Assembly: GCF_002966125.1 (NCBI RefSeq)
Contig: NZ_CP027062.1
Coordinates: 2,418,001 to 2,482,000, forward strand
DNA length: 64,000 bases
Reading direction: 5' to 3'
Source: Pukyongia salina
GTDB taxonomy: Bacteria > Bacteroidota > Bacteroidia > Flavobacteriales > Flavobacteriaceae
A model generated the notes under the pieces. The model saw nothing but the letters and a program-made list of their open reading frames with translations. It did not search any database and had not been told where the DNA came from. Positions within the stretch are counted from its first letter, which is position 1. Every line of letters starts with the position of its first letter. Below, one piece after another: positions 2,809-21,018 of the stretch. A program made the position numbers and the translations under genes.

Positions 2809-2816
2809 TAACTTTG
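2809..2816 (+). promoter_or_regulatory. Candidate -7 element of the copper operon
   Basis: TAACTTTG matches the Bacteroidota -7 consensus TAnnTTTG. It ends 8 bases before the ATG at 2825, so the transcript would have almost no leader. I see no strong -33 TTG at the usual 19-20 base spacing. Confidence 0.45.
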
Positions 2817-2824
2817 TACTTAGC

Positions 2825-3238: not shown

Positions 3239-3259
3239 TCTTAAACAATAGCTTCTTTT

Positions 3260-3316
3260 ATCCAACGGCCTAGTGTCGATTGGATATATTGCTGTATTCG
3301 GTGATTTACTATCACC
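3260..3316. repeat. Two inverted repeats between HYC_CC_PP gene and cusA
   Basis: ATCCAA (3260-3265) pairs with TTGGAT (3280-3285), and GGTGAT (3300-3305) pairs with ATCACC (3311-3316) around a five-base loop. They fill most of the 105-base gap before cusA. They could be an operator, an mRNA-processing hairpin or an attenuator; no U-tract follows either of them. Confidence 0.4.
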
Positions 3317-3343
3317 AATGTCTAATTGTTTAAGAATCAATCC

Positions 3344-6300: not shown

Positions 6301-7051
6301 TGTGGGATATGTGCTATTCGATAAAATAGATGGGTTTGCAGAAGTAAGTGTGGTTGAAAACGCCCAATTACTTATAAAGCAAAAGATAGATTCTGGTGAA
6401 TTGATTGTTCCCGAAGGAATTAACTATGCGTTTACCGGCACCTACGAAAATCAACTACGAGCAGAGAAAACCTTATCGGTTGTGGTACCCTTAGCTTTGG
6501 CCATTATCTTTTTAATACTGTATTTCCAATTTAGATCGGTAGGCACATCCTTAATGGTGTTTACAGGAATTGCGGTGGCGTTTGCTGGAGGGTTCTTAAT
6601 GATATGGTTATACGGGCAAAGTTGGTTTTTAAACTTCAGTTTCTTCGGAGAGAATTTGCGCGATTTATTCCAGATGCATCCCATAAATTTAAGTGTGGCA
6701 GTCTGGGTAGGATTCATTGCTTTATTCGGGATAGCAACGGATGATGGGGTGGTAATGGCCACATATTTAACACAGACGTTTCATAAGAATACACCCGAAA
6801 ATAAAACAGAAGTGAGAGCGTCTGTTCTTGAGGCAGGCGAAAAACGAATAAGACCATGCCTGATGACAACAGCGACCACGATCCTTGCACTACTTCCCGT
6901 ATTGACTTCCACAGGTAGAGGAAGCGATATCATGATACCTATGGCCATTCCAAGCTTTGGCGGTATGCTTATCGCCCTAATAACCTTATTTGTTGTGCCG
7001 GTATTGTATAGCTGGACGGCCGAAGTTAAACTAAACAAATTGACAAAATGA
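3344..7051 (+). CDS. cusA: Cu(I)/Ag(I) efflux RND permease CusA
   Basis: 1235 residues from the ATG at 3344. A TTG at 3326 would add six residues, but the family begins MLNK-hydrophobic, as here. This inner-membrane proton-driven transporter drives metal through a three-part envelope pump. The fourth-helix motif AIAIGTMVDVGVILSEN is the monovalent-metal (HME4) type. The three methionines that pass copper in E. coli CusA have counterparts in LLMPTSMP, APLSMYEN and LVMLQTGMRAPMG. About twelve membrane helices and two large periplasmic loops fit the family, and the length is normal. Its stop overlaps the start of cusC by four bases (ATGA). The adaptor partner is not adjacent but encoded at 11912. 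Confidence 0.93.
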   Translation: MLNKCIKFLIENKLVAVLLLILFIGWGTINAPFNWDTGFLPSNPVAVDAIPDIGENQQIVFTKWDGRSPQDIEDQITYPLTTTLLGIPGVKTIRSSSMFGFSSIYIIFEEDVEFYWSRSRILEKLNSLPSGLLPDGVNPALGPDATGLGQIFWYTLEGRDENGNVTGGWDLQELRSIQDYYVKYALSSASGVAEVASIGGYVQEYQVDVNPELMRQYNIALHQIVKAVKESNKEIGAQTIEINRAEYLVRGLGYVKSIADIENAVVISEDFTPIRIKDIGKVSLGPGTRRGLLDKEGAEVVGAVVTARYGANPMEVINNVKEKINEISSGLPSKVLSDGRTSQLTIVPFYDRTEIIQETLGTLNEALTLEILITILVIIIMVFNLRASILISGLLPVAVLMVFIAMKLFGVDANIVALSGIAIAIGTMVDVGVILSENIIRHLDEDDGTQPINTIVYNATAEVSGAIVTAVMTTIISFIPVFTMIGAEGKLFRPLAFTKTFALTASIIVALFLIPPFAAYLFRKKNNKTNLKYVTNGGLILFGIVSMFYGYWLGLVLIAFGTIAILRLRQKITAKQSNLANIFISATAIIFLLAQYWRPLGVDKSIFWNLIFVGIICFGLLSLFSLFIKFYTRILRWCLDNKLLFLSIPTAIVIAGIFIMRNTGKEFMPSLNEGSFLLMPTSMPHAGVEENKRVLQQLDMAVASIPEIETVVGKAGRTESALDPAPLSMYENIIQYKPEYMLNDKGERQRYKVNKDGLFELRDGRFISNPNKVENSSFPKVKRSQLIEDTNGEYYRNWRPEIKSPDDIWNEIVRVTKLPGVTSAPKLQPIETRLVMLQTGMRAPMGIKVKGQDLKQIEAFGVQLENIIKQAEGVKVEAVFADRIVGKPYLLIDIDREKIARYGVTIQEVQDILKVAVGGMVLTQTVEGRERYGVRVRYPRELRANPTDIEQIYVPVEKGSPIPLSELATIRYEKGPQVIKSEDTFLVGYVLFDKIDGFAEVSVVENAQLLIKQKIDSGELIVPEGINYAFTGTYENQLRAEKTLSVVVPLALAIIFLILYFQFRSVGTSLMVFTGIAVAFAGGFLMIWLYGQSWFLNFSFFGENLRDLFQMHPINLSVAVWVGFIALFGIATDDGVVMATYLTQTFHKNTPENKTEVRASVLEAGEKRIRPCLMTTATTILALLPVLTSTGRGSDIMIPMAIPSFGGMLIALITLFVVPVLYSWTAEVKLNKLTK

Positions 7052-8283
7052 GAGAGAGTAAGTTTTATATAAAAGTATTGGTGTTCCTTGCGATCTGTTC
7101 GGCAGCTCCAATTTCCAACGCACAGGATTTGGAAGCTCTTGTTGAAGAGGCTTTGAATAACAATCCGGAAATCCAAAAATTCGAATTGCAATATAAAAGA
7201 GCTTCAGAAAAGAGCAATGAGGTTAATGCAATTCCGAACACTGAATTTGGTTTCGGTTATTTCATTAGCGAACCAGAAACACGAACGGGCGCACAACGAT
7301 TTAAAATATCGGCCAAGCAGATGTTCCCGTGGTTTGGAACCATTGCTTCGAGAGAGAATTATACGAACTCATTGGCGGATACGAAATACATGGAGATTCT
7401 TATTGCAAAGCGGAAATTAATAGCTTCGGTATTGCAGGTATATTATAACTTATATGCGAACCATGAAAAACAAAAGGTACTCACCGATAATATAAAATTA
7501 CTCGATACCTACGAAACTTTGGCACTAACATCGGTTGAGGTAGGTACGGCTTCTGCTGTCGACGTACTTAGATTGCAAATGCGAAAAAACGATCTGCAGC
7601 AGTTAAAAGATATATTATATCAACAGTTTTTAGCAGATCAAACAAAGCTAAATAAGCTTTTAAATAGAGATGAAAGTATTTCGATTAGGATTGCGGATAA
7701 ATTGGATATTCCTTCTGAAGATGTTGAAATCCTTACTGAAAACTTGGTCTTACACCCAGAACTGTTGAAATATGACCAGTTGTATAAATCTGTTGCACAA
7801 TCTGAATTACTAAACCAAAAAGAAAGAAGTCCAATGATTGGTTTTGGGCTGGATTATATAAACGTTGATGAAAGACCGGATATGAGTTTTACCGATAATG
7901 GTAAAGATATTGTAATGCCAATGGTCTCTGTATCGATTCCAATTTTTAATAAAAAGTACAGATCTCAATCTAAACAGAACGAGATAGAACAACGAGAAAT
8001 CAGTTATCAAAAACAGGATCGATTAAACACTCTGGAAACACTGTTAAGCAAGGCTATTAACGATCGTATTTCAGCCAGGATTAGTTATAATACACAAAGC
8101 AAGAACCTTAAACAAGCCAAAGATGCAGAAGAAATTTTAATTAAGAGTTATGAAACAGGTACGATAGATTTTAATGATGTTTTAAATATTCAGGAATTAC
8201 AGTTAAAATTCGAGATGGAACGAATCGAATCTATAAGGGCCTACTATGTACAAACTACAATTATCAATTACTTAATTCAATAA
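7048..8283 (+). CDS. cusC: TolC-family outer-membrane efflux protein (CusC-like)
   Basis: 411 residues with a cleavable signal peptide ending at SNAQ. The rest is long amphipathic helices with the internal duplication expected of TolC-type channels (for example ALNNNPEIQKFELQYKRA and LVLHPELLKYDQLYKS). Trimers of this family form the outer-membrane duct of RND pumps. The ATG overlaps the cusA stop, which argues for translational coupling and for a copper/silver role. No N-terminal lipidation cysteine is present, unlike E. coli CusC. Confidence 0.88.
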   Translation: MRESKFYIKVLVFLAICSAAPISNAQDLEALVEEALNNNPEIQKFELQYKRASEKSNEVNAIPNTEFGFGYFISEPETRTGAQRFKISAKQMFPWFGTIASRENYTNSLADTKYMEILIAKRKLIASVLQVYYNLYANHEKQKVLTDNIKLLDTYETLALTSVEVGTASAVDVLRLQMRKNDLQQLKDILYQQFLADQTKLNKLLNRDESISIRIADKLDIPSEDVEILTENLVLHPELLKYDQLYKSVAQSELLNQKERSPMIGFGLDYINVDERPDMSFTDNGKDIVMPMVSVSIPIFNKKYRSQSKQNEIEQREISYQKQDRLNTLETLLSKAINDRISARISYNTQSKNLKQAKDAEEILIKSYETGTIDFNDVLNIQELQLKFEMERIESIRAYYVQTTIINYLIQ

Positions 8284-8287
8284 TGAT

Positions 8288-8845
8288 ATGGCACAAACAT
8301 TTTTTATTAAGAATATGGTTTGTAATCGATGTAAGATGACAATCTTAAATCTTTTGCGTGAAAAAGGATTTCAGGTAGAATCTGTCGAGCTAGGGAAAAT
8401 TGTTGTCAATGAAATTTCTGATGGAAGTTATGTTGAATTAGAAAAAGAACTCAATAGTTTCGGTTTTGAAATTATAAAAGATACGGCAAAGGCTCTTGTT
8501 GAGAAAATTAAAATAGCCCTTATTCAGCAGATCGATGAAGGAGATAAAGATATTATACTAGTAAACCTCGCCAAAGAATTAGGAAAGAACTATGCTCTGC
8601 TTAGTAAAACGTTCAGTAAATCTGAAGGCATGACTCTCGAAAAATATGTAATCAATCTAAAAATTGAGAAAGCCAAGGAATACATTCAGTTAAATCAGCA
8701 CAATTTCAGTGAAATAGCCTATTCTTTATATTACAAGAACAGTAGTCATTTAGCGAAACAATTTAAGAGTTGTACCGGGATGTCGATGACCGAATATAAA
8801 AACCTTCAATCTGGTTACAGAATACCATTAGATGAAATTGTATAA
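8288..8845 (+). CDS. HMA-like domain fused to AraC-type DNA-binding domain
   Basis: 185 residues, four bases after cusC. Residues 1-65 resemble a heavy-metal-associated ferredoxin-like fold, with MVCNRC placing Cys12 and Cys15 exactly where CopA has its CxxC (TCSGC, Cys12 and Cys15). Residues about 75-175 are an AraC/XylS helix-turn-helix pair (FSEIAYSLYYKNSSHLAKQF, then TGMSMTEYK). There is no other ligand-binding domain and no membrane segment, so this looks like a cytoplasmic regulator that senses Cu(I) directly through its own CxxC. It sits between the export genes and copA. Whether it activates or represses is unknown. Confidence 0.72.
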   Translation: MAQTFFIKNMVCNRCKMTILNLLREKGFQVESVELGKIVVNEISDGSYVELEKELNSFGFEIIKDTAKALVEKIKIALIQQIDEGDKDIILVNLAKELGKNYALLSKTFSKSEGMTLEKYVINLKIEKAKEYIQLNQHNFSEIAYSLYYKNSSHLAKQFKSCTGMSMTEYKNLQSGYRIPLDEIV

Positions 8846-8921
8846 ATATTTGCCAGAATTAGGAAAACTATCTTATGTAAACCGCTGTAATTTAGTTCAA
8901 TAATTCAAAAAAAACTAAAAA

Positions 8922-11423
8922 ATGAAACACACGTATTACATACACGGAATGACTTGCAGCGGATGTCGAGATCATGTAGAAGAAACACTTTCTCAGGTTG
9001 ATGGTGTTTCTAAAGTAACGGTAGATCTAACCAAAGGTGAAGCCTCCATTGAAATGGACTCGCATATTCCTATTGAAGTATTTCAAAACGCTTTAAAGGA
9101 TCTAGGCGGCAGATATAGTATTGATACACATCGCGAACATCGAGAGGATGGAGGTGCGAATAAAACAAATAAACTAGTCGATGCGGGAACAGGTACATTT
9201 TATTGTCCTATGCATTGTGAAGGGGATAAAACTTATAACAAAGCAGGTGATTGCCCTGTTTGTGGAATGGACTTGGTTGAGGAGCAAAGCCTTTCCAGTA
9301 GCAGTGTTCAACAGTGGACATGCCCTATGCATCCTGAAGTTGTGCAGGATCATGCCGGATCGTGTCCCATCTGTGGTATGGATTTGGTGCCAAAGCAACC
9401 GGATCTCTCATCTGAAGAAAAGACGTATAAAAAGCTGCTAAAAAAGTTTTGGATCGCCTCGTTCTTCACGCTACCCATTTTTCTAATTGCGATGAGTGAA
9501 ATGATTCCAAATAATCCCTTGTATGAGATCACGGAACAAAAATACTGGAATTGGATACAATTTGCCTTATCGCTTCCGGTAGTGTTCTATGCTACCTGGA
9601 TGTTTTTCGAGAGAGCGTACAGAAGTATTAAAACATGGAATCTTAACATGTTCACGCTTATAGGTATTGGAGCCGGTGTTGCCTGGATTTTCAGTGTAAT
9701 AGGCATGCTATTCCCTGAGGTGTTTCCAGACCAATTTAAAACACACAGCGGAGCTGTACATGTATATTTTGAGGCTGCAACTGTAATTCTTACACTGGTA
9801 TTGCTGGGGCAATTATTGGAAGCCCGCGCACATAGCAAAACAAATTCGGCTGTAAAAGAATTATTGAAACTTGCTCCAAATAAAGCCAGTAAGATAATAG
9901 ATGGGGAGGAAGTAGAAGTTGGAATTGACAGCATAAAGCCAAATGACATTCTAAAAGTAAAACCTGGTGATAAGATCCCTGTGGATGGTGTAATAATGGA
10001 GGGAACTACAAGTATTGACGAATCTATGATCACAGGAGAGCCAATTCCGGTAAATAAGTCTGTAAACGATAAAGTGAGTAGTGGGACAATTAATGGAAAT
10101 CAGTCCTTTTTAATGAAGGCCGAGAAGGTTGGTAGTGATACTCTGCTGTCTCAAATAATTCACATGGTAAATGATGCCAGTAGAAGTCGTGCCCCTATTC
10201 AGAATTTAGCCGATAGAGTTTCGGGTTATTTTGTTCCGGCTGTAGTGGTAATTTCAATTCTAACTTTTATAATATGGGCAATTTGGGGTCCGGAACCTTC
10301 TTATGTTTTCGCGTTGGTAAATGCTATCGCCGTTTTAATTATTGCCTGCCCATGTGCATTAGGACTAGCAACCCCAATGTCTGTGATGGTTGGGGTAGGA
10401 AAAGGGGCTCAAAATGGTGTGTTGATCAAAAATGCGGAAGCTCTCGAAAAAATGAACAAAATAGATACCCTCATTATTGATAAAACAGGCACTATAACTG
10501 AAGGAAAACCAACGGTAGAAGCCATAGGTACTTTTAGCGATGAAATTACGAAAGAGGAGGTATTGCAATATATTGTATCAATCAATACACATAGTGAACA
10601 TCCTTTGGCCGAAGCGACTGTAAAATATGGTAAGGAACGAAGGATCGAAATTTTAAAAGCTGAGGAATTCACTGCTGTTACAGGAAAAGGAGTTGATGCT
10701 ATAATAAATGGGGAAAAAGTATTTCTGGGCAATGAAAAGTTGATGGAGCATGCAGATGCAGAAATTAAAACTGAGATGATCGCTCAAGCAAAAACCTATC
10801 AAAAACAAGGTAAAACAGTTTCATTTCTAGCTATAAACAAAAGAGTTGTAGGTTTTGTGGTCATTGGTGATAAGATTAAGGAAACCAGTGCTTCGGCTAT
10901 TGGCTTATTGCAGGCTAAAGGGATAAACGTAATTATGCTCACAGGTGATAATTACCATACGGCTCAGGCTGTGGCTAAAGAACTGAACATGACAAACTTT
11001 AAGGCAAATATGTTACCCGAAGCTAAATTGAGAGAGGTGGAACATTTACAACGTGAAGGTAGGGTTGTGGCGATGGCCGGGGATGGTATAAATGATGCTC
11101 CCGCATTGGCCAAAAGTGACGTAGGAATTGCCATGGGAACAGGGACAGATGTTGCTATAAATAGTGCGATGATTACACTGGTTAAAGGGGATTTGCACGG
11201 CATTGTGAAGGCAAGGAATTTAAGTGATTCGGTTATGAAAAATATAAAGCAAAATTTATTCTTTGCCCTTATTTATAACACTTTAGGGGTTCCAATCGCA
11301 GCCGGTGTCTTATATCCGTTCTTCGGAATTTTATTATCACCAATGATTGCCGCATTGGCTATGAGTTTTAGTTCAGTTTCGGTAATAGGAAATGCCTTAC
11401 GATTAAGAACCATTAACATATAA
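8922..11423 (+). CDS. copA: Copper-exporting P1B-type ATPase CopA
   Basis: 833 residues. An N-terminal HMA domain (GMTCSGC, Cys12/Cys15) is followed by two short CPMH...CPxCGMDL metal-binding modules (about 95-117 and 134-154). The ATPase core has the phosphatase motif TGEP, the membrane metal site CPC (476-478), the phosphorylated Asp520 in DKTGT, the SEHPL nucleotide motif and GDGINDAPAL. The CPC and the late-helix motifs fit the Cu(I) type, which pumps Cu(I) from cytoplasm to periplasm. The ATG lies 76 bases after the HMA-AraC gene, a gap in which I see no clear TAnnTTTG, so read-through from upstream is likely. The double module before the core is an addition frequent in Bacteroidota. Confidence 0.93.
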   Translation: MKHTYYIHGMTCSGCRDHVEETLSQVDGVSKVTVDLTKGEASIEMDSHIPIEVFQNALKDLGGRYSIDTHREHREDGGANKTNKLVDAGTGTFYCPMHCEGDKTYNKAGDCPVCGMDLVEEQSLSSSSVQQWTCPMHPEVVQDHAGSCPICGMDLVPKQPDLSSEEKTYKKLLKKFWIASFFTLPIFLIAMSEMIPNNPLYEITEQKYWNWIQFALSLPVVFYATWMFFERAYRSIKTWNLNMFTLIGIGAGVAWIFSVIGMLFPEVFPDQFKTHSGAVHVYFEAATVILTLVLLGQLLEARAHSKTNSAVKELLKLAPNKASKIIDGEEVEVGIDSIKPNDILKVKPGDKIPVDGVIMEGTTSIDESMITGEPIPVNKSVNDKVSSGTINGNQSFLMKAEKVGSDTLLSQIIHMVNDASRSRAPIQNLADRVSGYFVPAVVVISILTFIIWAIWGPEPSYVFALVNAIAVLIIACPCALGLATPMSVMVGVGKGAQNGVLIKNAEALEKMNKIDTLIIDKTGTITEGKPTVEAIGTFSDEITKEEVLQYIVSINTHSEHPLAEATVKYGKERRIEILKAEEFTAVTGKGVDAIINGEKVFLGNEKLMEHADAEIKTEMIAQAKTYQKQGKTVSFLAINKRVVGFVVIGDKIKETSASAIGLLQAKGINVIMLTGDNYHTAQAVAKELNMTNFKANMLPEAKLREVEHLQREGRVVAMAGDGINDAPALAKSDVGIAMGTGTDVAINSAMITLVKGDLHGIVKARNLSDSVMKNIKQNLFFALIYNTLGVPIAAGVLYPFFGILLSPMIAALAMSFSSVSVIGNALRLRTINI

Positions 11424-11439
11424 TCTAAAACCAAACATT

Positions 11440-11922
11440 ATGAAAAATTCGAACCATCATTCAAACAAGGGAAATTACAGGACATTCTTTCTAATGCTAG
11501 CGTGTTCATTTATCGCTATGTACGTTACAATGTATCTCAACACCTACGCTATAGATCATGTATGGTTTAGCTTAACCCGCTTTTTTATGACATGTTTAGG
11601 TATTTCAACTATGGCAGTAATAATGTGGCTTTTTATGCGAAAAATGTATACGAATAAGAGAAAGAATATTGCCATTCTAGCTGGAAGTACTTTATTATTT
11701 GTAAGTGCTTTGGGATTAGTGCGATCACAATCGCCTATTATTGGAGATATACTATGGATGAAAGCTATGATTCCACATCATTCTATCGCTATTTTAACCA
11801 GTGAAAGAGCAGATATCAAAGATCCTGAGGTTAAACAGCTGGCGGACGATATAATTAAGGCCCAACGTAAGGAGATTGAACAAATGAAAAAAATGATTAA
11901 AAGATTAGAAAATGAAAAATAA
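11440..11922 (+). CDS. DUF305 domain membrane protein
   Basis: 160 residues with three predicted membrane helices (about 15-33, 45-65, 76-93) and a C-terminal DUF305 signature, MKAMIPHHSIAILTSERA, followed by a helical lysine/glutamate-rich tail. DUF305 proteins have a ferritin-like helical fold and are common in copper-resistance loci; the paired histidines and methionines suggest metal binding in the periplasm. The gene is 16 bases after copA and overlaps the RND adaptor gene by 11 bases, so it belongs to the same transcript. No enzymatic role is established. Confidence 0.8.
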   Translation: MKNSNHHSNKGNYRTFFLMLACSFIAMYVTMYLNTYAIDHVWFSLTRFFMTCLGISTMAVIMWLFMRKMYTNKRKNIAILAGSTLLFVSALGLVRSQSPIIGDILWMKAMIPHHSIAILTSERADIKDPEVKQLADDIIKAQRKEIEQMKKMIKRLENEK

Positions 11923-13690
11923 CAAAATAGTTACTTATGCAGGTATACTTGCAGTTGGCCTGCTGTTAGGGTGGTTATTGTTTGGTAGTGCTTCGTCAAT
12001 GAAGGAATCTACAAGCCATGATCATACAGAGGTTTCCGAAGCAAATCAAATGTGGACTTGCTCCATGCATCCTCAAATTATGCAGTCTGAACCGGGTGAT
12101 TGCCCCATTTGCGGGATGGACTTAATTCCTGCTGAAACGGGTAGTGAAAGCCTGTCAGTAAATCAATTCAGTTTATCGGAAACTGCTTTGGCTCTTGCAG
12201 ACATACAAACCACTGTTGTACAAGGGAGTTCTTTGAGAGGAAACAGTATAAAACTATCGGGAAAAATTGTCGAAAATGAAGAAGAGAATGCTGTACAGGT
12301 TAGTTATTTTTCTGGTAGAATTGAACGGCTTTACGTTAATTATACTGGAGAAGAGGTTAGTAAAGGGAAGCTGTTGGCAACTATTTATTCTCCGGAATTG
12401 ATTGCTGCTCAACAAGAACTGATCACAGCTGCTTCATTAAAAGAATCTCAACCAGCGCTATACAATGCGGTGAGAAACAAGCTTAAATTATGGAAGTTAT
12501 CCGAAAATCAAATAAATCAAATCGAGATATCCGGAAAGGTTCGCGAAAATTTTCCTGTTTATGCAACGGTTTCCGGAACGGTTTCAGAGAAGTTGGTTGA
12601 GGAAGGGGAGTCTGTAAAACAGGGGCAACCATTATTAAAGATTGCCAATTTAAACACTGTTTGGGCTAGTTTTGACGTGTATGAGAGTCAGATCAACCTT
12701 TTTGAACAGGGTCAGGAAATCGTGATTACCACCCAAGCCGATCCCAATGAGAAATACAAAGCAAAGGTATCTTTTATAGATCCAGTTCTTGACGGTAAGA
12801 CCAGAACAGTAAAATTACGGGCTGTATTGGATAACAAAAAAGATGTGTTCAAGCCAGGAATGTTTGTAGAAGGACAATTAGAAGGGAGGTCGGGCAAAGC
12901 AGAAAATCTTATTACGATACCATCTTCCGCCGTACTATGGACCGGTGAAAGATCTGTGGTTTACGTCAAGGTAAATGAGAATGAACCTGTTTTTGAAATG
13001 CGTGAAATATCGCTAGGAAACAGTGTAGGTGAAAATTACGAAGTAAAAGAAGGATTATTCAGCGGGGAAGAAATTGTCACCAATGGGGCTTTTACTGTCG
13101 ATGCGGCTGCGCAATTACAAGGTAAAAAGTCTATGATGAACAAGGAAGGCGGGAAAACATCGACGGGTCATGAAGGACATCTTGGAATGAATACTTCAAA
13201 TTCCAATTCAGAAAATTTAAATACACATGAAAGAATAAAGGTTTCATCTAATTTTCAAATGCAATTGAAGAGTGTTTTTGATGATTATATCGGCTTAAAG
13301 GATGCATTTATTTCAGAAGATTCTAAGGCGGTTAAGTTATATACCAAGGAACTTCTTAGTAGTATTGACAAGGTTGACATGAATTTATTAAAAGATGGTA
13401 CCGCACATGACCGTTGGATGGTTTTGGAGGGAAAAATAAAGTCTGCATCGAATTCAATTATTAATACTTCAAATTTATCGTCTCAAAGGAAATACTTTAA
13501 AGAATTGTCCTCACAACTTTCTTATGCTATTCAATTGTTCGGAATTAATGAGAAGGTGTACAATCTTTATTGTCCGATGGCAAATAACAACCAAGGTGCT
13601 TATTGGTTGAGTACGGAAAAGAAAATTTTAAATCCTTACTTTGGAGAGGCAATGTTGACTTGCGGAGAAGTAAAACAAATAATCGAATAA
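11912..13690 (+). CDS. cusB: RND adaptor (CusB-like) with metal-binding module and DUF3347 tail
   Basis: 592 residues. An N-terminal membrane anchor (about 9-24) is followed by a heavy-metal module (CSMHPQI...CPICGMDL, about 50-71), then the biotinyl-lipoyl/beta-barrel adaptor core (SGRIERLYV, TVSGTVSEKLVEEGESV, VSFIDPVLDGKTRTVKLR). The C-terminal ~145 residues form a DUF3347 domain ending YCPMANNNQGAYWLS...NPYFGEAMLTCG, with Cys/Met copper ligands. Adaptors bridge inner-membrane CusA and outer-membrane CusC. Here the adaptor is separated from cusAC by four genes, which is unusual. The DUF3347 tail may do the job of the small copper chaperone CusF of enterobacteria; that is inference. Confidence 0.88.
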   Translation: MKNNKIVTYAGILAVGLLLGWLLFGSASSMKESTSHDHTEVSEANQMWTCSMHPQIMQSEPGDCPICGMDLIPAETGSESLSVNQFSLSETALALADIQTTVVQGSSLRGNSIKLSGKIVENEEENAVQVSYFSGRIERLYVNYTGEEVSKGKLLATIYSPELIAAQQELITAASLKESQPALYNAVRNKLKLWKLSENQINQIEISGKVRENFPVYATVSGTVSEKLVEEGESVKQGQPLLKIANLNTVWASFDVYESQINLFEQGQEIVITTQADPNEKYKAKVSFIDPVLDGKTRTVKLRAVLDNKKDVFKPGMFVEGQLEGRSGKAENLITIPSSAVLWTGERSVVYVKVNENEPVFEMREISLGNSVGENYEVKEGLFSGEEIVTNGAFTVDAAAQLQGKKSMMNKEGGKTSTGHEGHLGMNTSNSNSENLNTHERIKVSSNFQMQLKSVFDDYIGLKDAFISEDSKAVKLYTKELLSSIDKVDMNLLKDGTAHDRWMVLEGKIKSASNSIINTSNLSSQRKYFKELSSQLSYAIQLFGINEKVYNLYCPMANNNQGAYWLSTEKKILNPYFGEAMLTCGEVKQIIE

Positions 13691-13709
13691 TTAACTAAAT
13701 ATTGAAACA

Positions 13710-13949
13710 ATGAAAAAAATTATTTTAGGTTTGGCGATCATTACGTTTATGGGAGTTTCATTAACTGCCTGTAAAAATGACACAAAGGAAGATACGAAGA
13801 CTCAAGAAATTGCGAAAGTAGAGTATCAATGCCCAATGAAATGTGAAGGTGAAAAAACCTACACAGATAAAGATGTAAAATGTCCGGTGTGCGGCATGGG
13901 ATTGAAGCAAGTGGAGCATAAGAATGATCATTCAAATCACGATAATTAA
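13710..13949 (+). CDS. Small copper-binding lipoprotein
   Basis: 79 residues. A signal peptide ends in the lipobox LTAC, so the mature protein would be membrane-anchored through Cys20. The rest is almost only one heavy-metal module, YQCPMKCEGEKTY followed by CPVCGMGL, and a His-rich tail. The same module occurs twice in CopA and once in CusB of this operon, so this is a free-standing version that may buffer or deliver Cu(I) in the periplasm. It is the last gene of the unit, 19 bases after cusB and followed by a terminator at 14008-14042. Confidence 0.78.
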   Translation: MKKIILGLAIITFMGVSLTACKNDTKEDTKTQEIAKVEYQCPMKCEGEKTYTDKDVKCPVCGMGLKQVEHKNDHSNHDN

Positions 13950-14007
13950 TTGGTTTAAATTATCGGCGGAGTGATTAGATCATCTACTAATCTGGCCATT
14001 ATGGTAG

Positions 14008-14042
14008 AAAGCCCTGTAGATTTTAAACTACGGGGCTTTTTT
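14008..14042 (+). terminator. Intrinsic terminator of the copper operon
   Basis: AAAGCCCTGTAG pairs with CTACGGGGCTTT around a short AT loop, with one G-U pair, and is followed by a T-run. It lies 59 bases after the last gene of the copper unit. Confidence 0.8.
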
Positions 14043-14491
14043 ATAATTAATTTTTGGTGATAATCATGCCCCGTGTAAATATTATATGGCCGGTATAAAA
14101 GCCTTCATGAAATCATAATATGATGACTATTGAGTACTGTAATCCATTGTGATTCAAAACCTCGTCTCTAATTACGTAAGTAGCTAATGAAACTAACAAA
14201 GTAGGACAAAACCATTTGAATGACAAGAGGTAAGCAACTGACCTCTCTGATAGATTTGTTTTTGATGCGCCTAAACAATTCGAGTTTAAAATACACCTTC
14301 AAAACTATTATCACTATTTAACGAATAGTATTTTAGGATTGAAAGTTCTGATTAGGTAAAAACATTGACGGATGAAATACTAACGAAATATAAAACACCA
14401 TCACATTTACAGGTAATTATGAAAATAATATTAATACCGTCACATATTAAATATATTCAGTATTTGCACAGGCATTGCATTAATAAATTAA
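14043..14491. other. AT-rich intergenic region between the two metal units
   Basis: About 450 bases without a convincing gene. A weak inverted repeat AGAGGT (14226-14231) / ACCTCT (14241-14246) is followed by a T-rich stretch. The DNA is visibly AT-rich. No transposase or integrase fragment could be read in any frame. Confidence 0.5.
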
Positions 14492-14499
14492 TAGCTTTG
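14492..14499 (+). promoter_or_regulatory. Candidate -7 element of the second metal unit
   Basis: TAGCTTTG matches TAnnTTTG and ends five bases before the ATG at 14505. Nearby TTG triplets exist, but none at the ideal spacing. Confidence 0.45.
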
Positions 14500-14504
14500 T
14501 AGAG

Positions 14505-14822
14505 ATGAAATTTTTGTGCTACATATTGGCAATTACAATATTTTCTTTGTCTGCAACACCTTGTTCTGATGGTCAAAATATTGAAGATCAACATCAGGAA
14601 GAGCTGAGCATAGACCATAATCATCAAGAAGATAGTGACGATTCTTGTCCCGTAACTTGCATTTGTAATTGTTGTGGTATGTCTATTACCTATGAACCTT
14701 TGGCGACTTTCGACCTAATTGACTATTACAAAATTTCTACGAAAATATTTTCTTCATATCAGTCTATATATAGATTTGATTTTCATTCCAATATTTGGCA
14801 ACCGCCACAAGTAACTAGCTAA
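14505..14822 (+). CDS. DUF6660-like small secreted Cys/His-rich protein
   Basis: 105 residues. A signal peptide (MKFLCYILAITIFSLSATPC) is followed by an acidic, His-rich stretch (HQEELSIDHNHQEDSDDSC) and a Cys cluster (CPVTCICNCCGM). The layout matches the flavobacterial family I know as DUF6660, which usually precedes a TonB-dependent receptor, as here, 49 bases upstream. The Cys/His content and the Fur regulator and metal ATPase downstream suggest periplasmic metal capture. The function is unproven. Confidence 0.65.
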   Translation: MKFLCYILAITIFSLSATPCSDGQNIEDQHQEELSIDHNHQEDSDDSCPVTCICNCCGMSITYEPLATFDLIDYYKISTKIFSSYQSIYRFDFHSNIWQPPQVTS

Positions 14823-14871
14823 AACAATATGATTTTAGATCAATTTTTTAGTTAATTACAATTTTATTTCA

Positions 14872-17058
14872 ATGAATAAATACATATTGAGCATAAAGCT
14901 CATTTTAATACTTTGTCTATCAATAGAGGCACAAACATCCGATATTCAAATAAAAGTGGTTACAGGGGCAGAAAACGAGCCTTTAATTGGTGCTACGGTT
15001 TACTTTGAGGCATTAGAAAAAGGAGCAGTAACAAATTTCGATGGGATTGCAGAGTTTACGGTAATACCGAATGGTCAACATCAAATAATAATTTCATTTT
15101 TAGGATTTGAAACATTAGAAACAACGATTCAAGTCCCGGACGAAACAGATTTGACGTTTAAACTTAAAGAAGGTGGGAATCAATTAGATGCTGTGGTATT
15201 ACAGTCCACGAGAAGTACAAGAACGGTGAAAAGGATACCAACACGGATTGAGTTTATAGGTGCAGAAGAATTAGGAGAAAAAGCAATAATGAATCCTTCT
15301 AATATTTCTATGGTACTTCGTGAAAGTACCGGAATACAAATGCAACAAACCTCATTAAGCAGTGGTAGTACGAATATTCGGATTCAAGGATTAGATGGAA
15401 GATATACACAGTTATTGAGAGATGGATTTCCTCTGTATGGAGGCTTTTCAAGTGGATTAAGCATACTACAAATTCCACCTTTAGACCTTAATCAGTTTGA
15501 AATAATAAAAGGAAGTTCATCTACATTGTATGGTGGAGGTGCTATTGCAGGATTAGTAAATATGGTATCTAAAACACCTGATGAAGAACCTGCTTTAGAC
15601 ATCATGCTTACGCAGACCCATGCATTAGGAAGTACAGCTAATATCTTTTACAGCGAACGAAATGAAAAGTTTGGTGTTTCACTCTATGGCTCTGGTCACT
15701 ATCAAAAAGCATTTGACCCAGAAGATGATGGCTTTAGTAATCTACCAAAAACAACATCAATTTCTTTCAATCCTAAACTGTTTTATTATCCATCTGAGGA
15801 TACTACAGTTTGGTTTGGATTAAACGGAACGTATGATGATAGAATCGGTGGAGATATTACCAAAATTGAAAGTGGGGAAGATGGTATTCATCAATATACT
15901 GAAGAAAACATTTCAAAACGCATAAGTAGTCAATTGGTGTATCAAACTCAATTAGATTCTGTTAGCTCATTAGAATTTAAAAATAGTGTCTCTTTTTTTG
16001 ATAGGGATTTAAATGTTCCAGATTTTAATTTTGATGGTCAGCAAACAAACACTTTTACTGAAATTACATATAATAAAGCATCGGAAAAAACAGATTGGAT
16101 AATTGGAGCTAATCTATATACATCAAACTTTGATGAAAATGATAATGCACCACTACAACGTGACCAAAAAGACGTAACCTTCGGTGCTTTTGCAAATAAT
16201 ATCTACGATATTTCAGATAATTGGATATTAGAAACAGGGCTAAGAGCAGATTATAATAACGATTTCGGTTTCTTTCCTCTACCAAGAATTTCATTACTAT
16301 ATAAAAATAGTAGTGGATTTTCAAGTAGAATTGGTGGAGGTTTAGGGTATAAGATTCCGGATATTTTTACTGAAGAAGCTGAGTACATCAATTTTGAAAA
16401 TGTACTTGCAATAGATAAATCTACAGTAGATGCAGAACGTTCTTATGGTGTTAATTTCGATGTAAATTATCAAATCCGTTTATCTGATGAGATTGGTTTT
16501 TCTGTGAATCAATTATTCTATGTTACTGCTATTAATGATGGATTGCTTTTAAATTCAACAGATAACGAATTATTTCAGTTTGAAAATGCACCAGATGAAA
16601 TCTTTAGTAAAGGAGCAGAGACAAATATAAAATTTACATATAGAGACTTTAGATGGTTTTTAAACTATGCCCTTATTGATACCAAACTAAATTATTTACC
16701 TGGTAATCCTCAAAAACCATTAACAGCGAAGCATAACGCAGGTAGCGTTTTAATGTACGAATCGGACAAATGGCGAATTGGTTATGAAACCTATTATACA
16801 GGAAAACAATTTTTATCCAATGGAACCGAAACGACAGACTTTGTAACTATGGGTTTGTTGGTTATGCGTAACTTTAAATTAGGTAGTGTATTTGTGAACT
16901 TTGAAAATTTTACAGATAGAAGACAAAGCAGGTTTTCACCTTTGGTTTTACCACCACACGAGAATCCTGTATTTCCAGAGATTTATGCTCCTACAGATGG
17001 CTTTATATTTAGTGTAGGACTTATTATCAAACCTTTCGGAAACGGAGACCACGATTAA
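14872..17058 (+). CDS. TonB-dependent outer-membrane receptor
   Basis: 728 residues. A signal peptide is followed by a carboxypeptidase-regulatory-like beta domain (about 24-105, EPLIGATVYFEALEKGAVTN), a plug domain with NIRIQGLDGRYTQLLRDGFP and SSSTLYGGGAIAGLVNM, and a long beta-barrel that ends in a family-typical aromatic stretch. Such receptors take up metal complexes or cofactors across the outer membrane using TonB energy. It lies between a His/Cys-rich secreted protein and a Fur-family regulator, so a metal ligand is likely; the length matches the smaller siderophore/metal receptors. The DNA is AT-rich compared with genes after 20 kb. Confidence 0.88.
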   Translation: MNKYILSIKLILILCLSIEAQTSDIQIKVVTGAENEPLIGATVYFEALEKGAVTNFDGIAEFTVIPNGQHQIIISFLGFETLETTIQVPDETDLTFKLKEGGNQLDAVVLQSTRSTRTVKRIPTRIEFIGAEELGEKAIMNPSNISMVLRESTGIQMQQTSLSSGSTNIRIQGLDGRYTQLLRDGFPLYGGFSSGLSILQIPPLDLNQFEIIKGSSSTLYGGGAIAGLVNMVSKTPDEEPALDIMLTQTHALGSTANIFYSERNEKFGVSLYGSGHYQKAFDPEDDGFSNLPKTTSISFNPKLFYYPSEDTTVWFGLNGTYDDRIGGDITKIESGEDGIHQYTEENISKRISSQLVYQTQLDSVSSLEFKNSVSFFDRDLNVPDFNFDGQQTNTFTEITYNKASEKTDWIIGANLYTSNFDENDNAPLQRDQKDVTFGAFANNIYDISDNWILETGLRADYNNDFGFFPLPRISLLYKNSSGFSSRIGGGLGYKIPDIFTEEAEYINFENVLAIDKSTVDAERSYGVNFDVNYQIRLSDEIGFSVNQLFYVTAINDGLLLNSTDNELFQFENAPDEIFSKGAETNIKFTYRDFRWFLNYALIDTKLNYLPGNPQKPLTAKHNAGSVLMYESDKWRIGYETYYTGKQFLSNGTETTDFVTMGLLVMRNFKLGSVFVNFENFTDRRQSRFSPLVLPPHENPVFPEIYAPTDGFIFSVGLIIKPFGNGDHD

Positions 17059-17060
17059 TT

Positions 17061-17474
17061 ATGGAAACAATCGAACAATTATTAGAGTCAAAAGTTATAC
17101 GTGTTACCGCAATGCGCTTGTTGATATACAAGTTTCTTGCTGAAAAAGAAACTGCAGTAACATTGAGTGATATTGAAAATGCGTTTGAAAAAGCAGATAG
17201 AACTACCTTATATAGAACGATCAAAACTTTTGAAGATAAAGGAATCGTTCATCAAATAGATGATGGCACAGGAGTTACCAAATATGCATTATGTGAAGAG
17301 AGTTGCAATTGTGAAATTGAAACTGATTTACACCTCCATTTCCATTGCACTAATTGTAGCGAGACCATTTGCTTAACAGAGCATAAAATCCCTCAAATAA
17401 AAGTGCCGGAAGGATTCGTTTCTGAGAATGTGAACTTGGTAGTAAAAGGTATTTGCGATAAATGTAGCGGTTAA
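17061..17474 (+). CDS. Fur-family metal-dependent transcriptional regulator
   Basis: 137 residues, two bases after the receptor gene. The N-terminal half is a winged helix (TAMRLLIYKFLAEKE, DRTTLYRTIKTFEDKGIVHQ). The C-terminal half has the Fur-type metal site HLHFHC followed by CxxC (TNCSE) and a terminal CDKC, the four-cysteine structural zinc arrangement. The sequence alone does not settle whether it is Fur, Zur or PerR; with a Zn/Cd-type ATPase as the next gene, a zinc-responsive role is favoured. It probably controls its own unit. Confidence 0.88.
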   Translation: METIEQLLESKVIRVTAMRLLIYKFLAEKETAVTLSDIENAFEKADRTTLYRTIKTFEDKGIVHQIDDGTGVTKYALCEESCNCEIETDLHLHFHCTNCSETICLTEHKIPQIKVPEGFVSENVNLVVKGICDKCSG

Positions 17475-17531
17475 TAATGCACTTCCATTGCACAGCTTAT
17501 TGTTGGATCTTTGGATGGTATAAAATTTATT

Positions 17532-19484
17532 ATGAAGAAAAAGAAAGTCAATTTAAGAGATTTAAAGCCAAATTCGGGAAAAGAGCATGGACATGATGAT
17601 AGCCACAATCATAGTAACAATTCAAATAAATTTAAAGCCTACATTCCAGCCATCATAAGTTTTACAATGCTAATTATTGGTATTGGGTTAGATTATTTTG
17701 AAGTTAGTTTTTTCAAGGATTGGATTAGAGTCATTTATTATGGCATTGCTTATTTGCCAGTTGGACTTCCTGTTGTAAAGGAAGGCTGGGTAAGTATTAA
17801 TAAAGGCGATGTATTTACAGAGTTCTTTTTAATGTCCATTGCTACTATTGGTGCATTTATAATTGGTGAGTATCCTGAAGGTGTTGCGGTAATGTTATTT
17901 TACGCAGTTGGTGAATTATTTCAAAACGCAGCAGTAAACAGAGCAAAAGGAAATATAAAAGCCTTACTTGACGTAAGACCAAATGAAGCTCTGGTATTTC
18001 GAAACAATGATTATATATCTGTAAGTCCAGAAACGGTTAAAATTGGCGAAAAAATACAAGTACGTGTGGGAGAAAAAATTCCTTTGGACGGTATTCTTCT
18101 TTCCGAAAAAGGCTCATTTAATACAGCTGCATTAACAGGCGAAAGTAAACCCAATACCTTGGTAAATGGCGAAAAATTATTTGCTGGTAGTATTAATTTG
18201 GATGGCGTAATAGAAATCGAAACCACCAAAGAATTTAAGGATAGTTCCATTGCCAGAATTCTGGATATGGTTCAGAATGCCGTAGCTCGTAAATCGAAGA
18301 CAGAATTGTTCATCAGGCAATTCGCACGAATTTACACACCCATTGTAGTGTTTTTAGCAATTGGTGTTACGTTCATTCCCTATTTTTTTGTTCATGATTA
18401 TGTCTTTAAAGATTGGTTATACAGAGCTTTAATTTTTCTGGTAATCTCTTGTCCTTGTGCCCTAGTTATTTCAATACCATTAGGTTACTTCGGAGGATTA
18501 GGAGCAGCTTCAAAGAATGGTATTTTGTTTAAAGGCGCTTCATTTCTAGATGCAATGACCAAGGTAAATACTTTGGTTATGGATAAGACAGGAACGGTTA
18601 CCAAAGGAGTTTTCAAAATCAAAGAAATCAAAGTCATAGATTTAGAAGAATCCGAATTTATGAAGTACCTAATGGCTATGGAAGAACAGTCAATACATCC
18701 CATTGCAAAAGCCATATTGGAATACAAGCAAGATCTTAAAGGATTTAAAGCAGAAGAAGTTTCTGAAATCGCAGGTAAAGGCTTAAAAGGTATCGTGAAT
18801 GGCAAGACCGTATTAGTTGGTAATAAAGCCCTTATGACAGCTAATAACATTAGCGTTTTAGATGAAACGGATACAATTGTAGAATCGATTGTTTTAGTAA
18901 GCATCGATAATAAGTTCGCTGGTTTTGTAGTAATTGCTGATGAATTAAAGGAAGATGCACAAGAAACGATTACAGCATTGCATAAAATAGGTGTCAAAAA
19001 TATAATGATGCTTTCTGGGGATAAAGATTCAATTACTCAAAAAGTAGCCTCTGAATTAAATATAGAAAACGCAAAAGGCGGCTTGTTACCAGAGGATAAA
19101 TTAAATGAAGTTGAAATTTTAAAGAAAAATCCAACAAATAAAATTGCTTTCATAGGTGATGGTATTAATGATGCGCCCGTTTTAGCTGCAAGTGATGTGG
19201 GTATCGCAATGGGTGGTTTAGGTAGTGATGTTGCTATAGAAACAGCTGATGTTATAATTCAAACAGACCAACCTTCAAAAGTGGTTAGAGCCATTAAAAT
19301 AAGTCGCTCCACCCGAAAAATTGTTTGGCAGAACATTATTTTGGCTTTTGGTGTAAAAGTTATTGTATTGATTTTAGGAGCAGGTGGCTTGGCTACAATG
19401 TGGGAAGCTGTTTTTGCAGATGTAGGTGTAGCACTATTGGCAATATTAAATGCAGTTCGATTACAGAGAATGGAATGGAGTTAA
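17532..19484 (+). CDS. Zn/Cd/Pb-type heavy-metal P1B ATPase
   Basis: 650 residues from the ATG at 17532; a TTG at 17511 would add seven residues and is less likely. A His-rich head (EHGHDDSHNHSNN) replaces the usual HMA domain. The membrane metal site CPC is at 307-309 in the context CPCALVISIPLGYFGG, typical of the ZntA/CadA type, and the phosphorylated Asp is 351 in DKTGTVTKG; HPIA and GDGINDAPVLAASDVGIAMG are also present. It should export divalent soft metals from the cytoplasm. It follows the Fur-family gene on the same strand, and its 3' end borders the tRNA-Ser repeat array. Confidence 0.87.
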   Translation: MKKKKVNLRDLKPNSGKEHGHDDSHNHSNNSNKFKAYIPAIISFTMLIIGIGLDYFEVSFFKDWIRVIYYGIAYLPVGLPVVKEGWVSINKGDVFTEFFLMSIATIGAFIIGEYPEGVAVMLFYAVGELFQNAAVNRAKGNIKALLDVRPNEALVFRNNDYISVSPETVKIGEKIQVRVGEKIPLDGILLSEKGSFNTAALTGESKPNTLVNGEKLFAGSINLDGVIEIETTKEFKDSSIARILDMVQNAVARKSKTELFIRQFARIYTPIVVFLAIGVTFIPYFFVHDYVFKDWLYRALIFLVISCPCALVISIPLGYFGGLGAASKNGILFKGASFLDAMTKVNTLVMDKTGTVTKGVFKIKEIKVIDLEESEFMKYLMAMEEQSIHPIAKAILEYKQDLKGFKAEEVSEIAGKGLKGIVNGKTVLVGNKALMTANNISVLDETDTIVESIVLVSIDNKFAGFVVIADELKEDAQETITALHKIGVKNIMMLSGDKDSITQKVASELNIENAKGGLLPEDKLNEVEILKKNPTNKIAFIGDGINDAPVLAASDVGIAMGGLGSDVAIETADVIIQTDQPSKVVRAIKISRSTRKIVWQNIILAFGVKVIVLILGAGGLATMWEAVFADVGVALLAILNAVRLQRMEWS

Positions 19485-19692
19485 TTCAAATTATATTGCG
19501 GACTATTGTCAGCTATTATGTCAACTAAGAAAACAAACCCGCTTATATCAACAGATAACGGAGATAGTAGCGGAGAAAGAGGGATTACATATCCCTGGTC
19601 CTCCACACCTTACAATAAAGCTCCCTGCTGCTTACGCAGCATTAATGCTTTTGCTTTTTCTTCACTTATGAAAGCCTGCGCCTTTCAACATT

Positions 19693-19735
19693 CTAACAAA
19701 CAAAAGCCCAATTTCTTTTCAGAAATTGAGCTTTG
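19693..19735 (-). terminator. Copy of the terminator in the distal repeat
   Basis: The stem is unchanged but the U-tract is interrupted (TTTTGTTTGTT), so this copy may be weaker. It lies downstream of the second reproduced tRNA tail (19741). Confidence 0.65.
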
Positions 19736-19867
19736 CTCTAAGCGGAGAAAGAGGGATTACATATCCCTACGGTCTCCACACCTTACAATAAAGCTCCCTG
19801 CTGCTTTCGCAGCATTAATGCTTATGCTTTTTATTCACTTATGAAAGCCTGCGCCTTTCACCGTTCC

Positions 19868-19908
19868 AAAAAAACAAAAGCCCAATTTCTTTTCAGAAAT
19901 TGAGCTTT
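19868..19908 (-). terminator. Copy of the terminator in the middle repeat
   Basis: Same stem, GAAA loop and U-tract as the terminator at 20041-20081, placed downstream of the first reproduced tRNA tail (19915). Confidence 0.75.
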
Positions 19909-20040
19909 GCTCTAAGCGGAGAAAGAGGGATTACATATCCCTGGTCCTCCACACCTTACAATAAAGCTCCCTGCTGCTTACGCAGCATTAATGCTTTTGC
20001 TTTTTCTTCACTTATGAAAGCCTACGCCTTTCACCGTTCC

Positions 20041-20081
20041 AAAAAAACAAAAGCCCAATTTCTTTTCAGAAATTGAGCTTT
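20041..20081 (-). terminator. Intrinsic terminator directly after tRNA-Ser
   Basis: On the minus strand GCTCAATTTCT, loop GAAA and AGAAATTGGGC form an 11-bp stem with one U-G wobble, followed by TTTTGTTTTTTT. The wobble pairs only in minus-strand RNA (it is a C-A clash on the plus strand), which fits its place after the tRNA. Confidence 0.8.
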
Positions 20082-20089
20082 GCTCTAAG

Positions 20090-20174
20090 CGGAGAAAGAG
20101 GGATTCGAACCCCCGGAGGTGTGACCCTCAACAGTTTTCAAGACTGCCGCATTCGACCACTCTGCCATTTCTCC
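20090..20174 (-). tRNA. tRNA-Ser (anticodon UGA)
   Basis: 85 nt with acceptor stem GGAGAAA/TTTCTCC, discriminator G, D-arm GCAGAGTGGTCGAATGC, anticodon loop CTTGAAA giving anticodon TGA, a long variable arm (GTTGAGGGTCACACCTCC) typical of serine tRNAs, and T-arm GGGGG-TTCGAAT-CCCTC. No CCA is encoded. It would read UCA and other UCN codons. Confidence 0.96.
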
Positions 20175-20184
20175 AATGCGGTTG

Positions 20185-20192
20185 CAAATATA
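20185..20192 (-). promoter_or_regulatory. Candidate -7 element of tRNA-Ser
   Basis: On the minus strand TATATTTG, a match to TAnnTTTG, lies 10 bases before the tRNA 5' end. Confidence 0.5.
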
Positions 20193-20356
20193 CTATGCTT
20201 TTTTATTCTGAAAAAACTATTTTGAAAGATTTACACTAATCGATCTTCTCCCTTATCTTTTTATATTCCGCAGATTCTACGCCTAAGAATAACCTTTACT
20301 TTTTGCGATATAGTTATTTGTAATTACACCTTTTCATTTAATCGGGATATGAAACG

Positions 20357-20364
20357 TACTTTTG
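20357..20364 (+). promoter_or_regulatory. Candidate -7 element of the nitroreductase gene
   Basis: TACTTTTG matches TAnnTTTG and ends 18 bases before the ATG at 20383. It also shows that a longer TTG-started frame from 20362 would begin inside the promoter. Confidence 0.45.
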
Positions 20365-20382
20365 TACTATATCCTAGAGATC

Positions 20383-21018
20383 ATGAATTCAGAAATTATA
20401 TCTAAACTTCGATGGCGATACGCAACTAAGAAATTCGATCCCAATAAAATTCTTTCCGAAGCAAAATTGGAAATTCTAAAAGAGGCATTTAATCTCACTG
20501 CTACATCCTACGGACTCCAGCCGCTTCGATTATTAGTCCTCACAGATCCTACCATAAAGGAGCAACTTGTACCCATTAGTATGGATCAACTACAGGTAAA
20601 GGACGCTTCTCATGTTCTCATTATTTGTACAGAACAAACCGTGACTTCAAAATATATAGAAGCACATTTTAGTAGGGTAGAGGAAATACGCAATACACCG
20701 AGAAAGATTCTTGATCCCTTCGAAGACTTTCTTGTTGCTTCTTTTTCTGAAATGAAACCCGAGGAGATCGACCTATGGATGACCAAACAAGCCTACCTCG
20801 CCATGGGTAATTTACTTACCGTTTGCGCTCTGGAAGGTATCGACGCCTGTCCTATGGAAGGTTTCGAACCGGAAAAGTATGACGAACTTCTGGAATTACA
20901 CAAACTAGGCCTTCGCTCTGTGCTGGTCTTGCCTGTAGGTTATCGTGCTGAGGATGATATGTTCGCCGATTTTAAAAAGGTGAGACGTGGGGTAAAAGAT
21001 GTAGTGATCGAACTTTAG
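20383..21018 (+). CDS. NAD(P)H-dependent nitroreductase family protein
   Basis: 211 residues. The opening MNSEIISKLRWRYATKKFDP is the standard FMN-binding start of NfsB-like nitroreductases (R-x-x-x-K-F-D/x-P), and MEGFEPEKYDELLEL with VLPVGYRAEDD closes the fold. These homodimeric FMN enzymes reduce nitroaromatics, quinones or similar electron acceptors with NAD(P)H in the cytoplasm; the natural substrate is not readable. It is a single-gene unit. Confidence 0.88.
   Translation: MNSEIISKLRWRYATKKFDPNKILSEAKLEILKEAFNLTATSYGLQPLRLLVLTDPTIKEQLVPISMDQLQVKDASHVLIICTEQTVTSKYIEAHFSRVEEIRNTPRKILDPFEDFLVASFSEMKPEEIDLWMTKQAYLAMGNLLTVCALEGIDACPMEGFEPEKYDELLELHKLGLRSVLVLPVGYRAEDDMFADFKKVRRGVKDVVIEL

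Follow-up and report, generated by a model that had tools for sequence, protein, structure and literature searches.

The tRNA-linked repeats (TLRs) of Escherichia coli, first described in 1978, are tandem units that immediately follow a tRNA (or rRNA) gene on its strand, each closing with a repeat of that RNA's own 3′ end. Here we analyze a 64,000 nt stretch of the flavobacterium Pukyongia salina (the window; contig NZ_CP027062.1, positions 2,418,001–2,482,000), in which three repeat units follow the gene for tRNA-Ser(UGA) in this same arrangement; by its sequence-level features, the locus is a TLR array. In E. coli, 22 TLR units occur at ten loci (Rudd 1999, cited in PMC8144298), and the last 18–19 bp of a unit match the 3′ end of the RNA gene before it exactly (PMC8144298). 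RrA, RrB and RrF are TLRs located behind 5S rRNA and give processed RNAs of ~173 nt from T1 read-through; the 3′ end of RrB lies 3 nt beyond the tail copy, and the authors suggest that the repeated tail acts as a signal for RNase E (PMC8144298). According to the same 2021 paper, no function had been known for TLRs until it found modest CsrA effects of RrA, RrB and RrF (PMC8144298). The RtT RNA (Rfam RF00391) carries a tandem GA motif (PMC7657543), and in Dehalococcoides genomic islands no more than 100 kb from ssrA, a large share of them with recombinase genes, are flanked by 20-bp ssrA repeats (PMC3146451).

What is new here is a TLR array in a phylum for which we found no description, and it is one of many in its family; the TLR kind itself is known from E. 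coli. The mostly open-access literature that we searched gave no description of tail-repeat arrays in Bacteroidota; the term "tRNA-linked repeats" occurs in two of its papers, among them PMC9245011, and in the main text of a flavobacterial transcriptome paper the one occurrence of "tRNA" is within "aminoacyl-tRNA-synthetases" (PMC9723704).

The repeat array behind tRNA-Ser(UGA)

The array and its tRNA occupy the following window coordinates:

20089–20174, minus strand: tRNA-Ser(UGA) (ARAGORN; Rfam RF00005, 59.7 bits), with the tail A58–C74 at 20089–20105
19916–20088, minus strand: unit 1, 173 nt, with a terminator-like hairpin, further hairpins and a T-arm-like hairpin; tail copy at 19916–19932
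19742–19915, minus strand: unit 2, 174 nt; tail copy at 19742–19758
19570–19741, minus strand: unit 3, 172 nt; tail copy at 19570–19586

Unit 1 starts at the first base after C74 of the tRNA, on the same strand, and the three units are 96–98% identical. The original prediction had reported an 18-base tail recurring with periods of 172, 174 and 173 bases, of which only the last would belong to a tRNA, and the exact sites agree with it, as do ARAGORN and Rfam: GCGGAGAAAGAGGGATT occurs on the plus strand at 19570, 19742, 19916 and 20089 (spacings of 172, 174 and 173), the site at 20089 is the sole tRNA among the four, and the shared string reaches 18 bases once a flanking A is added to the 17-nt tail. 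Read on the tRNA strand, the copy comprises A58–G73 plus the encoded C74 and is exact in all three units. These four matches compare with 0.13 expected in shuffles, even with three mismatches allowed. The 14-nt core of the tail has four sites in the genome at up to one mismatch, all in the array and the tRNA; likewise, when the array was searched against the 3.18-Mb genome (E ≤ 1), the remaining matches were to the tail of the tRNA itself and to a pair of short stretches, one of 16 bases and one of 21.

Open frames of 112, 58 and 50 amino acids that span the units were rejected as genes, as they are antisense to the tRNA and cross its tail copies. An Rfam scan of the array region found nothing but the tRNA at the gathering score, and no family other than tRNA reached it in 16 related loci; RF00391 gave no match in 19300–20500 up to E = 10.

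Both the number of units (three, compared with one to five per TLR locus) and the tail (17 nt plus one flanking base, in three exact copies) agree with the E. coli TLRs, and the window units sit behind a first terminator, as RrB does (PMC8144298). Conversely, the array belongs to another phylum, has other unit sequences, and its copies stop at C74 whereas those of E. coli reach A76; the window copies are shorter at the 3′ end because the gene lacks the CA of CCA. The original prediction's comparison with E. coli tyrT was borne out, in that tyrT belongs to the TLR family and the tyrV units share the left boundary A58. Among the tRNA genes of the window genome that we inspected (L025–L060), all encode C74, most of them lack the CA of CCA, and the full CCA is encoded in a few (Leu-UAA, Pro-UGG), with the tail copies ending at C74.

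Tail copies at other tRNAs and their shared boundary

The window genome also has tail copies behind tRNA-Ala(GGC) (two), tRNA-Arg(ACG) (one) and tRNA-Leu(UAG) (two), and none upstream. The two 171-nt units of tRNA-Ala are identical on inspection, and the final copy has no tail. We surveyed 218 distinct tRNAs from six Flavobacteriaceae genomes (two of the window's genus and four from other genera of the family) for exact copies of 12 nt of the tail up to 700 nt away, or less at contig ends: such a copy was found downstream of 15 and upstream of none. The 15 include a pair of tRNA-Ile genes from a single genome, with near-identical surroundings. Of the four genomes from other genera, G103 and G283 were picked for tRNA-Ser tail copies, and G136 and G149 for having none; this survey found no tail copies in G136.

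The exact 16-nt tail of tRNA-Ser(UGA) is present in 233 of 299 genomes of the family, and at least twice on one strand in 26 of them. Ten of these 26 have copies 125–176 bp apart, including G080, where the closely spaced pair sits 19 kb from the tRNA; in the remaining multi-tail genomes the copies have wider spacings or sit on separate contigs, and they include second tRNA-Ser genes and attachment-site-like copies (11 genomes inspected). One contig of G243 (L128) has two 3′ ends of tRNA-Ser(UGA) in tRNA context, 1079 bp apart. The array in G003 (L011), from the same genus as the window, is on inspection the same as in L168 (Aureitalea sp. L0-47). A homolog of the window unit lies behind the tRNA-Ser of another genus (L123), with 128 of 166 aligned bases identical (score 157; shuffle maximum 54.5), and its tail copy has shrunk to AATCCCTC. 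The search for similar arrays in related genomes proposed in the original prediction found them. The idea that a single such architecture had newly arisen on one tRNA was not supported: it recurs across the family, on many isotypes, and was already named in E. coli.

The left boundary of the copies is largely constant. Among 22 units at 15 tRNAs, a count that includes tandem copies, so that not all are independent, identity runs leftwards from C74 for 17 nt (14 units), 18 nt (4), 14 nt (3) or 12 nt (1). The copy therefore starts at A58 in 18 of the 22 units (four of which also match base 57) and stops at the encoded 3′ end, with unit lengths between 64 and 244 bp. The same boundary is found at the tRNA-Ile between the 16S and 23S rRNA genes and at tRNA-Trp. 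In E. coli, each of the three 178-nt units of tyrV ends with exactly 19 nt of the tRNA (A58–A76); in 11 stretches of strain K-12 with 47 tRNAs, where one mismatch in 14 was accepted, there are copies behind Tyr, Lys and Arg tRNAs with 18–19 nt of identity, so that the copies in these units run to A76 from A58 (19 nt) or A59 (18 nt). This shared left boundary points to a putative common mechanism.

Filled and empty sites could be compared within the window's genus: in G003, the tRNA-Lys, tRNA-Arg(CCU) and tRNA-Trp genes are followed by additional DNA (95, 96 and about 80 bp, respectively), inserted between C74 and the sequence that directly follows the tRNA in G000. Small units share a motif, GTTTAYMYYGAGCG..AGTCGARG, usually after GAGAA and with the cognate tail next, behind Trp, Ile, Thr, Lys, Ala, Met and Arg(CCU) tRNAs. 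Scanning 395 Bacteroidota genomes yielded 24 matches to this motif in 10 genomes. Ten matches, from four genomes, follow Trp, Ile or Thr tRNAs, and three of the ten lie in a single genome at loci that are identical; nine of the ten are preceded by GAGAA and one by AAGAA, and on inspection the exact tail comes 25 nt after the motif start in eight, the other two having one and four mismatches. The other 14 matches are away from tRNAs, and none is preceded by GAGAA. The motif had looked exclusive to tRNAs from six out of six matches, in a set of genomes three of which had supplied the motif itself, a view rejected on this independent phylum-wide sample. The matches away from tRNAs (L296, L298, L302–L306, L310, L311, L314, L315 and L317–L319) come from several Bacteroidota, and a dispersed repeat of this kind may be the source from which the body of the small tRNA units arose.

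Structure of the units

The following elements were located in and next to the array:

20185–20192, minus strand: TATATTTG box, fitting TAnnTTTG, 10 nt before the first tRNA base
20050–20081, minus strand: terminator-like hairpin shortly after the tRNA, with 14 pairs and then TGTTTTTTTG
19877–19908, minus strand: terminator-like hairpin of unit 2, from the terminator search
19703–19734, minus strand: terminator-like hairpin of unit 3, with a weaker T run, TGTTTGTTAG
19926–19942, 19752–19768 and 19580–19596, minus strand: T-arm-like hairpin AGGGAT-ATGTA-ATCCCT with the start of the tail copy, from predicted folds

Each unit opens with a 14-pair terminator-like hairpin, giving three in the region against a shuffle mean of 1.0; this hairpin is absent from the small units of other tRNAs. 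Further hairpins follow inside the units, one of them with a GNRA loop that reads GAAA in unit 2 and GTAA in the other two, and the unit ends with AGGGAT-ATGTA-ATCCCT and then the remainder of the tRNA tail. The predicted fold of unit 2 (19742–19914) has −63.8 kcal/mol, with z = −5.1 against shuffles. The box preceding the tRNA fits TAnnTTTG, which we take to be the −7 box consensus of Bacteroidota, and there is no box of this type on the tRNA strand inside the units; the units, if transcribed, would therefore most simply be read from the tRNA promoter.

The small units (64–117 nt) resemble a single hairpin, in which the 5′ arm is complementary to the tail, with pairing that begins at base 59 or 60 and extends outwards. 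The arms are TGGGGC for Lys, ATATCGGAG for Ala, CTGGAC for Met, GGCAGG for Ile and GGGGAAGGAT for the Tyr unit of E. coli, and GAGAAG follows the arm in Lys, Ala, Met, Trp of G003 and E. coli Tyr. This layout of arm, GAGAAG, loop and tail is common to the E. coli Tyr unit and several small flavobacterial units; the E. coli units match RF00391 at 133–138 bits, and six small-unit loci gave no match to it up to E = 0.5. When pairing was anchored at N59–N61 and scored over the whole unit, with one decayed tail replaced by the tRNA's own, 23 units had a mean run of 5.52 bp, which was reached in none of 2000 permutations of the tails among isotypes (mean 4.14, standard deviation, sd, 0.30); this test is partly post hoc, since it was designed after looking at the sequences.

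Units behind tRNA-Ser fall in classes A (~125–127 nt), A′ (156–160 nt) and B (~167–176 nt, with a motif like GGTTTYTATGCTTGYYCWGGAT), which occur in different orders: tRNA-A-tail-B in G103, tRNA-B-tail-A-tail in G272 and tRNA-A′-tail-A-tail-B in G283. A scan of one genome per species (84,980 species) for the class-B motif gave 26 matches in 19 stretches. For 21 of them there is a tRNA on the same strand up to 1.2 kb upstream, 19 behind tRNA-Ser and 2 behind one tRNA left untyped by ARAGORN; the other five are in L158, L163, L166, L171 and L175. Class B, which in other Bacteroidota follows tRNA-Ser, covaries strongly: in 17 units 92.8% of the cells are paired, and 79 cells have double-sided changes, against 26.6 (sd 4.6) in shuffles, none of 500 of which reached this number. 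Sliding the partners left at most 23 such cells, a control that favors the structure because this was derived from the same alignment. The window unit type resembles class B by eye. Two side observations concern this class: three tRNA 3′ flanks (L035, L037, L058) have AAGCTTGCTT-core hairpins like class-B hairpin 2 and no tail copy, and Aureibaculum luteum (L162, L172) has runs of class-B sub-units behind tRNAs, 117 bp apart in L172, with a tail of only about AATCC.

Possible explanations: processing signals, attachment sites or duplications

We favor the explanation that the copied tail is a 3′-processing signal releasing structured RNAs after terminator read-through, to which we give about even chances. 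Most transcripts from the tRNA promoter would halt at the first terminator and a minority would read through; each tail copy, held in the T-arm-like hairpin, would be recognized by a tRNA 3′-maturing enzyme (of the RNase Z or RNase E/G type), and cutting at the tails would yield structured RNAs of ~150–175 nt, at a level following tRNA synthesis. The release of RNAs of ~150 nt from the array itself is suggested by analogy with RrA, RrB and RrF. We count in favor of this explanation the exclusively downstream location of the copies, the A58 boundary, the tendency to a cognate arm, the covariation of class B, the three terminator-like hairpins without an internal promoter box, and the read-through reported for RrB. 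Several results weigh against it. Taken singly, only 6 of the 23 units pair with their own tail better than with other tails at p ≤ 0.05, and the window unit, at 0.11, is not one of them; its T-arm alone is not significant either (p = 0.11 against other tails and 0.22 against shuffled bodies). A looser complementarity test, with the body cut to its last 80 nt, was not significant (550 of 5000 permutations), nor was a second unanchored test (Fisher p of 0.06 and 0.13). With few single units significant and two unanchored tests that are not, the cognate pairing arm is a tendency and not a rule. Additionally, class-B pairs with any double-sided change number 14, which 7 of 500 shuffles reached (shuffle mean 10.3), and there are only partial tails in the related units L114, L119 and L123 and in Trp of G003; such decay indicates that a full tail is not essential.

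The main rival, coming next after processed read-through RNAs and in our judgment unlikely, is that the tails are attachment sites or their scars: tyrosine-recombinase elements, or short non-autonomous modules that they mobilize, would have inserted serially at the 3′ end of tRNA-Ser, each leaving a unit bounded by the 17-nt core, and a metal-gene island would be one of them. A metal-type gene cluster (314–19484) does end at the array, beyond the last tail and on the far side from the tRNA; it contains an RND pump, two P-type ATPases, a TonB receptor, a Fur-type regulator and a ferredoxin-type oxidoreductase. Between the two there is a possible end of an integrative element:

19507–19528, no strand assigned: TGTCA repeats beside the last tail, on the island side

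By eye these repeats resemble those that G006 has next to an integrase gene and G003 next to its last tail, although by blast the likeness to G003 is weak (34 nt, 79%, E = 0.11). G006, which is 84–96% identical to the window genome over neighboring stretches, has a tail-unit-tail arrangement between other DNA and that gene, which encodes a tyrosine integrase (PF00589). Attachment sites would also agree with the unlike modules found in different orders at one tRNA (G103, G272, G283), with the insertions relative to empty sites at Lys, Arg(CCU) and Trp, and with some long-range Ser tail copies away from tRNAs that show the same 17-nt identity (G127, G266); in others, however, the identity is longer and begins before A58 (G186, G233). 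Likewise, none of the three PF00589 matches in the window genome is near the array (contig positions 2,437,570–2,438,174), the nearest being ~230 kb away, in a search that covered tyrosine recombinases, and a whole-genome search with the 14-nt core (up to one mismatch) found no second attachment site to mark the other boundary of the island. The array had no match in plasmids or phages, and viral contigs contained neither the class-B motif nor any of two patterns. Moreover, the same boundary is present at the rRNA-spacer tRNA-Ile and at tRNA-Trp, which are improbable island sites, and scars are not expected to show covarying helices. The Dehalococcoides ssrA repeats are similar in that the 3′ end of an RNA gene is repeated downstream, with insertion inferred there in the T loop (PMC3146451), whereas the flavobacterial units are of 64–244 bp, structured and without recognized genes. 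The 3′ end of tRNA-Ser(UGA) is perhaps a common island site in the family, and the tails may serve as attachment sites or be mistaken for them. Six tRNA-Ser(UGA) genes without an array (L101, L105, L106, L109, L111, L118) are followed by a AAAAGCCnnTAAACA..TGTTTAnnGGCTTTTT terminator and then, by eye, by an integrase-gene-like start. In G005 (L012), a relative of the cluster gene at 1651–2478, which belongs to no Pfam family, is on the 5′ side of tRNA-Ser.

Neutral tandem duplication, in which replication slips from the tRNA tail to a brief stretch resembling it farther downstream, so that the tail is copied with its flank and the copies then decay, appears quite improbable to us. It would account for the near identity of the units, both in the array and in the Ala pair, for the tailless final Ala copy and for the decayed tails, and a 175-bp variable-number tandem repeat at the rtT RNA is included in a Salmonella insertion/deletion table (PMC2658671). 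Slippage does not fit the start at A58 across unrelated units and tRNAs, the lack of any upstream copy, the covariation in class B, or the gain at Lys, Arg(CCU) and Trp of new sequence instead of duplicated flank. We consider it still less probable that a small insertion element, useless to the host, is aimed at tRNA 3′ ends and duplicates the tail. The constant GTTTAYMYYGAGCG..AGTCGARG body with tails that differ by tRNA is what a target-site duplication would give, but the tendency to a cognate pairing arm then needs a further cause and, to our knowledge, a 17-nt duplication at a fixed position is not typical of known elements.

Returning to processed read-through RNAs, a wider view, which we hold only tentatively and as less probable than the processing signal itself, is that tail-copying units form one bacterial class, present at least in Pseudomonadota and Bacteroidota, with the E. 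coli TLRs as one branch. They would be made by a single site-specific process whose limits are the junction of bases 57 and 58 in the T loop and the 3′ end as encoded. Their retention would be due to the copied tail, through which the enzymes of tRNA maturation could excise small RNAs in step with tRNA synthesis. For annotation, these loci call for caution, since such tails are easily taken for island attachment sites and short open reading frames cross the units. With the same boundary and layout in another phylum and behind many tRNAs, with empty sites in a sister species and with one class that covaries, TLRs become a comparative problem with many independent cases.
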